Of a DNA stretch of 64,000 nt, positions 15,325 to 57,459 are shown in pieces. The notes beneath the pieces are model-generated. The model was not told the DNA's origin, ran no database searches, and saw nothing but the letters and a program-made list of their open reading frames with translations. The stretch comes from Fibrobacteraceae bacterium (GTDB lineage: Bacteria > Fibrobacterota > Fibrobacteria > Fibrobacterales > Fibrobacteraceae). Where the stretch lies: positions 1-64,000 of the forward strand of contig JAGBSH010000011.1 in assembly GCA_017631885.1 (NCBI GenBank), written 5' to 3'. How positions within the stretch are numbered: position 1 is the stretch's first letter; each line of letters opens with the position of its first letter. A program made the translations under genes and the position numbers.

Positions 15325-17154
15325 TTATTCTACCGTAACGCTTTTTGCCAAATTTCTTGGTTGGTCAACATTGTTTCCGCGTAAGACAGCTATATGATAA
15401 GCTAATAATTGCAAAGGAATACAAGTGATAATTGGGGCTAGCATAGAAATGGTATTTGGTATGCGGACAATATCATCAGCAATATCATCAAGAGGATTTT
15501 TTTCTTCAGATGTTATAGCGATAACTTTTCCACCACGAGCCTTTATTTCTCTAACATTTGAAAGGATTTTATCAAACAGAGCATCTTTTGGAGCGATGAC
15601 AACAACAGGCATGTTTTCATCGATAAGAGCAATAGGGCCGTGTTTCATTTCTGCAGCTGGATAGCCTTCTGCATGGATATAACTAATTTCTTTTAGTTTT
15701 AAAGCGCCTTCCATAGCAACAGGATAATTGTAATGGCGACCTAAATAAAGGAAGTTTTTAGCGTCTTTATATTTTTTAGCAATTTCAAGAATGGCATCAT
15801 TTAATTTCAAAGTCTCTTCTACAAGTTCAGGTATTTTTGATATAGCTGTAGCAATCTCCATACCTTGTTCAAAAGAAACTCGGCGCTGGCGCCCAAGCAA
15901 AAGGGCTATCATAGAAAGAACTAAAACCTGCCCAGAGAATGCTTTTGTAGAAGCAACACCAATTTCTGGACCAGCATGTAAGTAAACACCACCATCAGAG
16001 ACTCTTGCAATAGATGACCCAACGGCATTACAAATGCCAAGAACAGTTGCACCTTTATGGTGAGCTTCTTTCATTGCAGCTAAAGTATCAGCAGTTTCTC
16101 CTGATTGTGAAATGCAAAGAACAAGGGTCCCTGGCTTTATAATAGGGTTACGATATCTGAACTCTGAAGCGTATTCAACTTCAACAGGAACACCTGCCAG
16201 TTCTTCAATCATATATTCTCCGACCATGCCTGCATAATAGCTTGTACCACAAGCGGTAATGATTATTCGGTTAATACTACGAAGTTCTCGAATATTTGCA
16301 TCAAGTCCTGATAATTTTGCAGTACCTTCGTTAATAAGAAGTCTTCCTCGCATTGTATTGCGCAAGGCTTCTGGTTGTTCAAAAATTTCTTTGAGCATAA
16401 AATGTTCAAAGCCACCTTTAGCAACTGATTCTATATCAAAGTCAACATTTTGAACTTCTCGTTGAACAATTTGGCTATGTAAATTTTGGAGTTCATAGCC
16501 GTTGCGTTTAGCAATCACAATATCATTGTCATCGAGGTATATGACTTTTTGGGTGTAATTTATAATAGCAGAAACATCACTAGCCAAATAATATTCACCA
16601 CCATCTCCAATTCCAAAAATTAATGGAGAACCTCTTCTTGCTCCAATTAAAACATCTGGTTGGTCTTTACAAATAACGCCTAAGCCAAAAGCTCCTTCAA
16701 GTTTAGCTAGAGCTTGTAGCACTGCTTTTTTCAAATCACCTTGATAAAAACGAGCAATAAGATGCGCAACAACTTCTGTATCGGTATCAGACTTGAATTC
16801 AATACCTTCTTCTTGAAGCTTTGCTTTGAGAATGGCATAATTTTCTATGATTCCATTGTGAACGACAGCAATTTTTCCATCGAAGCTAGTATGAGGGTGT
16901 GCGTTGTTTTCAGTTGGAGCACCATGAGTAGCCCAACGGGTGTGGCCAATACCTAAAAAACCATCGAGAGGTGTGTTTTTGATTTTTTCTTCTAAAGCGG
17001 CAATTTTACCAGTTGCTTTAATTGTTTCAAGAGATTTTCCAGAAAGTAAAGAAATGCCCGCACTATCATAGCCACGGTATTCTAGTTTTTTTAAACCTTC
17101 AAGCAAAATGGGTAAGGCTTCTCTATACCCGATATAGCAAACAATTCCGCACAT
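15325..17154 (-). CDS. glmS: Glutamine-fructose-6-phosphate aminotransferase (isomerizing)
   Basis: A 609-residue, full-length GlmS that makes glucosamine-6-phosphate for cell-wall synthesis. Cys2 (MCGIVCYIGYR) is the glutaminase nucleophile; HTRWATHGAPTENNAHPH and VHNGIIENY mark the N-terminal glutamine amidotransferase domain. Two SIS isomerase domains follow (GTSYYAGMVGEYM, CISQSGETADT, LGRHYNYPVAMEGALKLKE) and the C-terminus KSVTVE is the conserved ending. It is the first gene of a glmS-scpA pair on - with a good promoter at 17246-17274. The roughly 90-base leader is too short for a glmS ribozyme and I see no such core. Confidence 0.98.
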   Translation of the reverse strand: MCGIVCYIGYREALPILLEGLKKLEYRGYDSAGISLLSGKSLETIKATGKIAALEEKIKNTPLDGFLGIGHTRWATHGAPTENNAHPHTSFDGKIAVVHNGIIENYAILKAKLQEEGIEFKSDTDTEVVAHLIARFYQGDLKKAVLQALAKLEGAFGLGVICKDQPDVLIGARRGSPLIFGIGDGGEYYLASDVSAIINYTQKVIYLDDNDIVIAKRNGYELQNLHSQIVQREVQNVDFDIESVAKGGFEHFMLKEIFEQPEALRNTMRGRLLINEGTAKLSGLDANIRELRSINRIIITACGTSYYAGMVGEYMIEELAGVPVEVEYASEFRYRNPIIKPGTLVLCISQSGETADTLAAMKEAHHKGATVLGICNAVGSSIARVSDGGVYLHAGPEIGVASTKAFSGQVLVLSMIALLLGRQRRVSFEQGMEIATAISKIPELVEETLKLNDAILEIAKKYKDAKNFLYLGRHYNYPVAMEGALKLKEISYIHAEGYPAAEMKHGPIALIDENMPVVVIAPKDALFDKILSNVREIKARGGKVIAITSEEKNPLDDIADDIVRIPNTISMLAPIITCIPLQLLAYHIAVLRGNNVDQPRNLAKSVTVE

Positions 17155-17245: not shown

Positions 17246-17274
17246 AGTATATACTCTAGTGATGGTGTGTACAA
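17246..17274 (-). promoter_or_regulatory. Predicted sigma-70 promoter for glmS-scpA
   Basis: On the - strand TTGTAC (17274-17269), a 17-base spacer and TATACT (17251-17246). Predicted start near 17240, about 85 bases before the glmS ATG. The -10 lies in the palindrome AGTATATACT, so a -10-like hexamer is also present on +. Confidence 0.6.
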
Positions 17275-17399
17275 TTGTAACCAAAAAAAAGTAAAGAAAA
17301 TTGATTCAATAGTTAGAAAAATAACTAAATTAAATGATACCCAAACACTCCCTGACGCATCTAAGTTTTTCCTCCTTTACTTAGGTGCGTCTTTTTTTT
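17262..17399 (+). ncRNA. Candidate small RNA ending in a hairpin with an anti-Shine-Dalgarno loop
   Basis: GACGCATCTAAGT (17354-17366) pairs with ACTTAGGTGCGTC (17379-17391), followed by T8. Both neighbouring coding sequences are excluded as the source, because glmS runs the other way and the downstream gene starts later. The 12-base loop TTTTCCTCCTTT contains CCTCCTTT, the same as the 3' end of bacterial 16S rRNA, so it could pair with Shine-Dalgarno sites. The 5' end is a guess from the + strand -10-like TATACT at 17250-17255, which lacks a good -35. The hairpin is seen; the RNA and its function are inferred. Confidence 0.45.
17354..17399 (+). terminator. Orphan rho-independent terminator
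   Basis: A 13-base-pair stem with one G-T pair, a 12-base loop and eight T. It lies in a gap where no + strand gene ends; the last + gene ends at 14209 and has its own terminator. Confidence 0.88.
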
Positions 17400-45989: not shown

Positions 45990-46883
45990 ATGAATTTAAC
46001 AAAAATGCTTTGCGCTATCGCTTTCGTTTCTGTTGCAGCTTTTGCACAAAATGCTACACCTGCTAAAGCAGATGTTAAAGCCGCCCCAGCGAAAGAAGTT
46101 GTAAAACCAGCTGAACAACCAGCCGCAGCTCCAGCGAAAGAAGCAGCAAAACCAGCTGAACAACCAGCTGCAGCTCCAGCGAAAGAAGCAGCAAAACCAG
46201 CTGAACAACCAGCCGCAGCTCCAGCGAAAGAAGCAGCAAAACCAGCTGAACAACCAGCAGCTGCCCCAGCGAAAGAAGCAGCAAAACCGGCTGAACAACC
46301 AGCAGCTGCCCCAGCGAAAGAAGCAGCAAAGCCAGCTGAACAACCAGCAGCTGCCCCAGCGAAAGAAGTTGTAAAGCCAGCTGAACAACCAGCTGCTGCT
46401 CCTGCACAAGAAGCAGCAAAACCAGCTGAACAACCAGCCGCAGCTCCTGCACAAGAAGTAGCAAAGCCTGCTGAACAACCAGCAACTGATTCTGCTAAGG
46501 TAGCAGAAACCGCTCCAGCAGCGCCTGCTGATTCTACAGCTCCAGTTGCAGTAGCAACGGATTCTGCACAAGCAGCCCCTGTTGCTGATTCTGCTAAAGT
46601 AGCAGAAACTGCTCCAGCTGACTCAGCAAAAGAAGTTTTAGAACCAACAGCTCCAGTTGCTGCAGCAACGGATTCTGCGCAAGCAGCCCCTGTTACTGAT
46701 TCTGCTAAAGTAGCTGAAGCTACCCCAGCAGAACAACCAACTGAAACAGAAGAACAAGTTGCTCCTCGTGAAGTAACAGCGACAGCAGGAAAAACCATTA
46801 TGGAAAATCCATGGGAATTCTTAGTTGTTTCTGTTTTGTTTATTGCAACAACAATTGCAATTATTTTCACCGGTAAAGACTAA
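45990..46883 (+). CDS. Secreted/anchored protein with Ala-Pro-Glu-Lys tandem repeats
   Basis: A 297-residue protein starting with a signal peptide (LCAIAFVSVAAFAQ). Residues 34-168 are nine units of 15 residues of the type AKEAAKPAEQPAAAP, then a looser Ala/Asp/Ser/Val-rich repeat (DSAKVAETAPA, DSAQAAPV; about 169-255), and a C-terminal helix near 268-292 (ENPWEFLVVSVLFIATTI) that anchors it. The repeat region is probably an extended, proline-stiffened spacer. AAGGAG precedes ATG. An antisense open frame over the same region is a shadow of the repeat. Function unknown. Confidence 0.85.
   Translation: MNLTKMLCAIAFVSVAAFAQNATPAKADVKAAPAKEVVKPAEQPAAAPAKEAAKPAEQPAAAPAKEAAKPAEQPAAAPAKEAAKPAEQPAAAPAKEAAKPAEQPAAAPAKEAAKPAEQPAAAPAKEVVKPAEQPAAAPAQEAAKPAEQPAAAPAQEVAKPAEQPATDSAKVAETAPAAPADSTAPVAVATDSAQAAPVADSAKVAETAPADSAKEVLEPTAPVAAATDSAQAAPVTDSAKVAEATPAEQPTETEEQVAPREVTATAGKTIMENPWEFLVVSVLFIATTIAIIFTGKD
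46089..46493 (+). repeat. 45-bp tandem repeat, nine copies
   Basis: Nine head-to-tail 45-bp units inside the repeat-protein gene. Several units differ only at synonymous sites (for example GCCGCAGCT or GCAGCTGCC for the Ala run), so copy number may change by slippage or recombination. Confidence 0.9.
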
Positions 46884-55754: not shown

Positions 55755-55776
55755 TTTTATAAAAAGGAGTTTGTTT

Positions 55777-57459
55777 ATGGGTACATTCAAAATCAGAGCA
55801 TTATTGCTCTTGTCTTTTTCTTTGTCTTTTGCAGTAACTTCAAAAGATTTACCAATGACTGGGTGGGCAACTGTCAACAATACTACAGGGGGACTTGGTT
55901 ATGATACCGTTACCGTTGATAATGTTTCTGCCTTAAAGTCTTTTGCCGAAGATGGCAATAAAGTCATTTTTGTAAAGCCAGGGAATTATCTTGGGCCAAT
56001 TAATGTTGGCTCTAATGTTACGATTTATGGCTATCAAGGTGCAGTCATTCAACAACCTTCAACAGGAAGCGCAATGAAACTCAGCGAATCAAAAAACGTT
56101 ATTATTCGCAATTTAGAGTTTCAAGGCGTGGGCGCTCTTGATGAAGATGACGAAGATTGTTTACAGATAAATAAAAATTCTACTAATGTTTGGATCGATC
56201 ACGTTTATATTTACGATGGTCATGATGGAAATTTAGATATTACAAATGGTTCGAATTACATCACTATTTCATGGACAAAATTTGCTTATACAAATGCTTC
56301 TTCAAATCACCAGTTTAGTAACCTTATCGGAAACAGCGATTCTAAAACTAGTGACGAAGGAAAACTTAAAGTGACTTTTCATCACACTTGGTGGAGTGAT
56401 GGTGTAAAAGAACGCATGCCTCGCGTTCGTTATGGTCAAGTTCATCTTTACAATAATCTTTTTGATAGCAAAAATTCAAGCACTTGTATTCGGGCCGGAA
56501 TAAAGGCCGATTTAAGAGTAGAAAACAATGTTTTTATTGGGGTAAATAAACCGATTGATTTATATGAAAATGATTTTACCGCTGTTAGCGCGAACGGAAA
56601 TTATTTTGAAAATACTTCAGGCAATACAAGTGGAAGTGGTAATGCTTTTACACCAGGTTATACAGTTTCGCCTACTGATGTAAGTACGCAAGCTAAAGCT
56701 TACGCCCTGCGCGATTCTATACAACTTTACGCTGGTGCGACTTTACCTAATCCAGGGACAATACCACAAATTCAATCTTCCTCTTCTATTCCTAATAGTT
56801 CTTCTAGTGCTGTTAGCAGTTCTTCTGTTAAACCAGTATCGTCTTCATCTGGCATTTCAAATGGGAGTGCTACCCTTACAAAACATGGAGCAGGTTCTTC
56901 TTCACAGACAGTAAACCAAGGAGATTCTATTCAAAGTTTCTATTACACTTTTGAAAACGCCACAAGTGCTAGTGTTTCTGGTTTACCCGAAGGCCTCCTT
57001 TCTAGCATTAAAGGCAACAATATTCACATTTCTGGAATAGTTTCTTGTTCTGCTGAAGCAAAAGAATACCCTTATGTTATAACAACTGTAGGGGGCTCCA
57101 CTGATGCCTCAAAGAAAGGAACCATTACAGTAGTTGCTGTAGAACAAGATTCTTCTGAAATAAATCCAACACCAAATGATTCTTCAACAAACTCGATTGT
57201 TCAAAATAAACAAAACCTTTTTGTAATTCCGCAATCTTTTGCAGAACAAGGGAAAATTGAATTTTATTCTACCAAATCAGGAATTTCAAAAATTTTCTTG
57301 TTTGATGTGAATGGTGTTATGCTAAGATCAAAAACTATTAACACGCAATCTGGTTTTAACGCCATTACCATTGAGCGAAAAGGAATTTCTTCAGGAGCGG
57401 TATATTTGGTGTTACAAACTCCAGAATATTCCTTAAAAAGACGAATTGTTATTGAATAA
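55777..57459 (+). CDS. Pectate lyase, PL1 family, with poly-serine linker and C-terminal sorting-like domain
   Basis: From ATG 55777, 560 residues; AGGAG lies seven bases upstream. The signal peptide is followed by a right-handed beta-helix (about residues 20-300): KNVIIRNLEFQGVG, STNVWIDHVYIYDGHDG (Ca-site region), VTFHHTWWSDGVKERMPRVR with the catalytic Arg. A serine-rich linker (about 325-365), an Ig-like region with one Cys (about 375-460) and a C-terminal domain of the gliding/type IX sorting layout (about 485-560, KIFLFDVNGVMLRSK) follow. PL1 enzymes cleave polygalacturonate by beta-elimination. It lacks a recognisable CBM. Confidence 0.9.
   Translation: MGTFKIRALLLLSFSLSFAVTSKDLPMTGWATVNNTTGGLGYDTVTVDNVSALKSFAEDGNKVIFVKPGNYLGPINVGSNVTIYGYQGAVIQQPSTGSAMKLSESKNVIIRNLEFQGVGALDEDDEDCLQINKNSTNVWIDHVYIYDGHDGNLDITNGSNYITISWTKFAYTNASSNHQFSNLIGNSDSKTSDEGKLKVTFHHTWWSDGVKERMPRVRYGQVHLYNNLFDSKNSSTCIRAGIKADLRVENNVFIGVNKPIDLYENDFTAVSANGNYFENTSGNTSGSGNAFTPGYTVSPTDVSTQAKAYALRDSIQLYAGATLPNPGTIPQIQSSSSIPNSSSSAVSSSSVKPVSSSSGISNGSATLTKHGAGSSSQTVNQGDSIQSFYYTFENATSASVSGLPEGLLSSIKGNNIHISGIVSCSAEAKEYPYVITTVGGSTDASKKGTITVVAVEQDSSEINPTPNDSSTNSIVQNKQNLFVIPQSFAEQGKIEFYSTKSGISKIFLFDVNGVMLRSKTINTQSGFNAITIERKGISSGAVYLVLQTPEYSLKRRIVIE

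Follow-up and report, generated by a model that had tools for sequence, protein, structure and literature searches.

A predicted independent small RNA gene in a divergent gap

The question raised by this locus is whether a terminator-like hairpin lying where no gene ends belongs to a small RNA (sRNA) gene of its own and, if so, which mRNAs such an RNA may control. The window, i.e. the whole stretch of 64,000 nucleotides that was analyzed, carries glmS on the minus strand (15325-17154) and a PAS-GGDEF-EAL gene on the plus strand (from 17529 or 17544). The gap between them is divergent and, as the original prediction had it, no plus-strand gene ends in it. The hairpin at 17354-17399 of the plus strand was also found exactly as predicted, with a stem of 13 bp, a loop and T8. 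The two arms, supported by covariation, are GACGCAUCUAAGU (5' arm, plus strand, 17354-17366) and ACUUAGGUGCGUC (3' arm, plus strand, 17379-17391). They enclose the loop UUUUCCUCCUUU (plus strand, 17367-17378), which by window sequence and fold holds the anti-Shine-Dalgarno (anti-SD) motif CCUCCUUU, and are followed by a U8 tract (plus strand, 17392-17399) as the predicted transcription end, a U-rich tract being present in nearly all relatives. The sequence TTTCCTCCTTT occurs once in the window against 0.09 expected.

The terminator had thus been placed rightly, but the gene itself appears to be only about 60 nt long (about 17337-17399, plus strand; 5' end inferred within 17337-17339), and hairpin, loop and U8 form its 3' half. 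The other part is a single-stranded 5' tail, AUACCCAAACACUCCCU (plus strand, 17337-17353), a candidate seed on the evidence of alignment, fold and target enrichment; the layout of the RNA predicted from 17337 is 5'-AUACCCAAACACUCCCU-(GACGCAUCUAAGU UUUUCCUCCUUU ACUUAGGUGCGUC)-U8. The 63-nt RNA folds with -19.4 kcal/mol (z = -7.7, none of 200 shuffles being as good) into one structure with a frequency of 0.95. Tail and loop are both invariant and unpaired in this fold, as the conserved, accessible seed of a base-pairing sRNA should be.

Conservation of the predicted sRNA across Fibrobacteraceae

A covariance search, the check proposed with the original prediction, recovered hairpin and tail family-wide. 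With a model built from 25 sequences, the sRNA was detected in 92 of 111 Fibrobacteraceae genomes and in 7 of 11 genera, mostly as a single copy (own genome: model R1, G000:C17:17336-17398, E = 5.7e-19), and in 0 of the 57 genomes taken from the rest of the phylum. The same model detected no copy in genus g5, in the genomes G007, G009 and G012 and in a few others. When a spaced exact pattern was searched in 84,980 species genomes, 41 stretches were obtained, all titled Fibrobacter, Fibrobacteraceae, Fibrobacterales or Fibrobacteria. DNA search of relatives delimited a conserved island of about 80 nt, shared by several family genera, whose flanks are unrelated. Two-sided changes were observed at 9 of the 13 stem pairs and 97.8% of cells are paired; covariation is 0.561 versus 0.216 in shuffles (0/500), and the signal collapses on sliding the arms.

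The stretch ACCCAAACACUCCC of the 5' tail is invariant in the 25-row alignment. The loop core UCCUUU is present in 57/57 distinct loci, a set selected partly on the presence of UCCUUU, and loop constancy was also seen in a separate alignment. Tail and loop stay constant while flanks and neighbor genes vary, the reverse of the outcome (loop variable, flanks conserved) that was to speak against the original prediction. The neighbor is glmS in genus g1, speA (arginine decarboxylase) in g3 and g4, and in Fibrobacter an uncharacterized gene adjoining queH. Taken together, these searches show that the predicted sRNA has been retained in most Fibrobacteraceae, at several genomic sites unrelated to one another.

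In several genomes a plus-strand gene follows within about 100-150 nt, and the hairpin may be viewed as a cis element that serves this gene (here GGDEF-EAL) as its attenuator or riboswitch-like leader. However, the downstream genes vary (GGDEF-EAL, speA, the uncharacterized gene near queH), and because the neighbors differ between genera, a leader function for one gene is unlikely. In addition, no alternative antiterminator fold was seen in the 63-nt RNA, and the element keeps its own terminator and a fixed distance to its promoter. A cis role seems very improbable to us. Slightly harder still to credit is an ordinary terminator (one that stops antisense transcripts at glmS, for example) or a small ORF on the minus strand with AAAGGAGG as its SD. 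It is true that, lying in a divergent gap, the element has the form of an intrinsic terminator and that the minus-strand frame of 11 codons, named at the outset as the main alternative, exists and is open, but its SD plus ATG are kept in only 6 of the 57 distinct relatives. Against a plain terminator, the unpaired tail is invariant, and the loop and an upstream palindrome are kept while the stem turns over. Minus-strand ORF, leader or riboswitch, and plain terminator were all rejected on conservation.

A palindrome at a fixed distance upstream of the sRNA

The feature extends beyond the hairpin first reported: its 5' tail is conserved too, and a promoter region begins at 17266. An inverted repeat, TGTGTACAATTGTAACCA (17266-17283, plus strand), was located in the own genome and matches a consensus over the relatives' loci; it is a candidate activator site. 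Its consensus is TGTTTAC-N4-GTAAACA, with positions G2, A6, C7, G12 and C17 invariant, and its center lies 60-64 nt upstream of the tail in 56/57 distinct loci. Column counts over the 57 loci, and inspection by eye in the window, further point to a -10-like box, TAAATTAA (17326-17333, plus strand; family consensus about TATTTTAT), which ends about 4 nt before the tail. Class I activator sites have a position of about -61.5. If the transcription start is taken at or just before ACCC, the palindrome would lie at about this class I spacing.

A promoter-like layout in 57 loci plus the terminator would suit an independent transcription unit. By sequence comparison, the locus has the make-up of a free-standing predicted sRNA gene with its own conserved promoter region and Rho-independent terminator. 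It is because of the family-wide conservation, the stem covariation, the fixed tail and loop and the fixed palindrome distance that we regard it as a probable independent sRNA gene and not as a leftover terminator, a leader or a small ORF; covariation, the fixed promoter palindrome and the varying neighbor genes all speak for the candidate sRNA originally proposed.

The exact palindrome has 7 sites in 20 genomes, 5 of them at the sRNA. A wider palindrome regulon was considered and rejected (8 own-genome sites versus 7 for the reversed control pattern). The palindrome differs from the CRP consensus TGTGA-N6-TCACA. One clear Crp-family protein was found, with the CRP-type helix TRETVSR, which is expected to read TGTGA; this protein as regulator of the sRNA is unsupported by recognition helix and palindrome motif. 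A perfect copy of the palindrome was noticed just before a TIGR02147/DUF4423 gene of a relative (G022:C14:38726; L133, 1501-1518), and this Fibrobacter paralogous family is possibly a clue to the regulator of the sRNA.

The terminator loop resembles the 3' end of 16S rRNA

The claimed identity of the loop with the anti-SD end of 16S rRNA was borne out: CCUCCUUUA is identical to the 16S 3' ends of relatives from three genera, while a 16S of the own genome was not found with the 16S-end pattern. The 16S 3' end reads GGATTACCTCCTTTA in these relatives (G009, G003 and G017; L123-L125, near 1501-1540) and appears as GGAUUACCUCCUUUA in three family genera, which have a U at a position that is C in a more distant relative. 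In the Fibrobacteraceae 16S 3' end a T replaces the usual C of GGATCACC. The commonest loop context of the sRNA, UUACCUCCUUUACC (27/57 loci), shares the 12-nt UUACCUCCUUUA with the 16S end. Within genus Fibrobacter, the loop and the 16S 3' tail of the clade are identical (UUACCUCCUUUA); other genera share fewer nucleotides.

A conserved sRNA might act mainly through its anti-SD loop or on the translation machinery, either by imitating the 16S end and binding SDs in general or by titrating a protein that recognizes this end; the tail would then match fiber-degrading enzyme genes only incidentally. Conservation of the loop does equal that of the tail, and the Fibrobacter loop is identical to the 16S end; moreover, genome G002 of the own genus retains the loop with a changed tail. 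However, the tail is equally invariant elsewhere, and the complementarity described below is specific to secreted genes and to their start region. We hold this explanation to be unlikely. We favor the invariant 5' tail AAACACUCC as the probable site of the most specific mRNA pairing, the anti-SD loop being generic.

The case of G002 deserves description. There, a weak match occupies the corresponding position, divergent from glmS, and combines an unchanged loop with a new tail (G002:C82:17835-17896, minus strand, L107); stem and loop are kept, the 5' tail reads AUUGAGGAUCUAACCUCGUAG and there is no palindrome. Some G002 start regions carry GAGGTT, the complement of this new tail. At G002 start sites (229 kb, underpowered) the own-genome tail gave no clear excess and the G002 tail no significant excess. 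The variant neither proves nor breaks the targeting model. Four other genomes (G073, G080, G116 and G081; L109-L112) have an altered sRNA tail (e.g. CAUACUUCCC) with the same palindrome and loop, and such altered-tail Fibrobacter variants constitute a natural test of tail/target co-evolution.

Predicted complementarity of the tail to start regions of secreted enzyme genes

Many secreted, enzyme-like genes carry the complement of the tail beside their ATG, in the form GGAGTGTTTATG. A global over-representation of GGAG-TGTTT-ATG was not upheld, GGAG-TTTTT-ATG being as common or commoner in several genomes; therefore, a permutation test of the tail was used instead. ORFs were called in samples of the own genome (464 kb, with the window) and of the relative G022 (1.18 Mb), and tail duplexes were scored at -25 to +12 of the starts against permuted tails in which the anti-SD end was kept.

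Among secreted genes of the own genome, 10 at or below -13 kcal/mol were obtained versus 3.27 ± 1.97 (5/600 permuted tails reach 10), and 7 versus 1.25 at or below -15 kcal/mol (2/600 reach 7), an enrichment that enzyme paralogy inflates somewhat by lowering independence, for a hypothesis that was reached by exploration with heuristic ORF and signal-peptide calls. Non-secreted genes of the own genome showed no excess (9 versus 8.5), nor did the control windows -65 to -28 and +30 to +67. In G022 an excess was observed at the strongest energies only (5 versus 1.5 at or below -17 kcal/mol; 5/200 permutations), and there was no enrichment in mean duplex energy. The predicted complementarity of the tail to start sites of secreted enzymes is thus statistically supported in the own genome; the target complementarity expected of a base-pairing sRNA is found there and is weaker in G022.

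The top own-genome matches are, by Pfam, rhamnogalacturonan lyase, GH43, GH44, GH45 and pectate lyase. For the pectate lyase gene of the window (PF00544, 55777-57459, plus strand), an inferred target, the predicted pairing site (55766-55783, plus strand) comprises SD, start codon and codon 2. The duplex has 14 bp with two 2-nt bulges and -15.2 kcal/mol, and the predicted pairing can cover SD, spacer, start codon and codon 2 (AUGGGUA); taken alone this site is not significant, since 14/200 permuted tails score as well. An exact site is also present at a GH8 gene of a genome in which no sRNA was detected. Enzyme genes of genus g4 often carry a TTTTT spacer, with one mismatch to the tail. Among genes with a TTTTT or GTTTT spacer sampled in two Fibrobacter genomes, no polysaccharide-degrading enzyme was recognizable by eye.

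A base-pairing sRNA could also have other main targets, for example polyamine or general metabolic mRNAs, with the enzymes as minor or false ones. The strongest conserved exact site common to the own genome (G000) and G001 precedes a saccharopine-dehydrogenase-like gene, and the weak enrichment in G022 points the same way. Nevertheless, the enrichment in the own genome is restricted to secreted genes, mostly polysaccharide-degrading, and we consider such other targets a rather remote prospect.

Comparison with known sRNAs and a possible mechanism

Searched against Rfam, nothing but tRNAs reached the gathering score, and we know of no sRNA described for Fibrobacterota in the open-licence literature, where none was found. 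CyaR (RyeE, RF00112), a CRP-activated enterobacterial sRNA, was the only family with any similarity (19.4 bits against a cut-off of 47, i.e. below the gathering threshold), and six relatives' sRNA loci gave no CyaR match. CyaR binds the SD of ompX and requires Hfq (PMC11795201). Like CyaR, the predicted sRNA combines a conserved terminator loop with an SD-complementary seed (here loop CCUCCUUU and tail CUCCC) and has an upstream activator site, a candidate one in this case. In contrast, a search for Hfq (PF17209) in 13 relatives, the own genome among them, gave nothing while the positive controls were detected; the palindrome is not the CRP consensus, though at a class I-like distance; and CyaR has 85 model positions against about 60 nt here and belongs to a different phylum. 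Because the CyaR model score was not reached and Hfq, which CyaR needs, was not found, the predicted sRNA was not filed as CyaR, and we claim no homology, the sub-threshold match being judged convergent or chance.

GibS of Bacteroides thetaiotaomicron has a single-stranded conserved 5' seed, through which it pairs with metabolic mRNAs at their translation initiation regions (PMC7366714). The likeness lies in this 5' seed and in a polysaccharide-degrading host without Hfq (PMC7366714). GibS differs in its larger size, a largely unstructured form, a seed of 30-50 nt and other targets, and it is not known to have an anti-SD terminator loop like the present one.

Exposed C-rich, SD-complementary motifs are also used by RsaE/RoxS and AbcR-type sRNAs to repress translation initiation of metabolic and transport mRNAs. 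The predicted sRNA differs from these in having one hairpin plus a tail, no Rfam match, and a different phylum and promoter; an anti-SD region is present in AbcR1 (PMC6234868). The predicted RNA is, on its sequence features, a new family of a known kind, the trans-encoded base-pairing sRNAs.

We consider it fairly probable that this is a CyaR/GibS-like sRNA that pairs with start regions and represses translation of secreted plant-fiber enzymes. In some nutritional state, an activator that occupies the palindrome, about 62 bp upstream, would switch the sRNA on. Without Hfq, the tail AUACCCAAACACUCCC would then pair around the SD and start codon of mRNAs that encode secreted enzymes for plant polysaccharide degradation, and the anti-SD loop might strengthen the hold on the SD. 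Ribosome initiation on the paired mRNA would be blocked, which would amount to a post-transcriptional brake on the synthesis of fiber-degrading enzymes. We put forward more tentatively, as something we would not yet expect to hold in full, that a family-wide Hfq-independent sRNA with a 16S-end-mimic loop and a fixed tail governs the secreted cell-wall-degrading enzymes as one regulon, with the G002 sites having co-evolved.

To our knowledge, little is understood of how these fiber degraders adjust their large set of secreted enzymes. The question becomes testable with a single sRNA for which seed, promoter site and a list of targets are defined. If the reading is true, the pattern of anti-SD, carbon-linked sRNAs (CyaR, GibS) would extend to another phylum, apparently without Hfq.

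Additional observations

Secondary covariance matches in six Fibrobacter genomes (L113-L118, e.g. G025:C1:1006144-1006198) were rejected as members, as they follow coding genes and are without tail and palindrome. They consist of a conserved hairpin with the loop AGGAACCTCCCCTG, located directly after a coding gene and preceded by CAACCCCAAACAACCCC, and are possibly another C-rich 3'-UTR RNA.

Elsewhere in the own genome, repeats TCTACAACAGTAGAAATTTAATAGTTCGTTTAAAC (G000:C20:69666; L069, around 1501) have the look of a Cas12a-type CRISPR array. In the window, a gene at 45990-46883 (plus strand) encodes a protein of long tandem PAEQPAAAPAKEAAK-type repeats with a signal-peptide-like start, and the opposite strand likewise has a long open frame that runs through the repeat.
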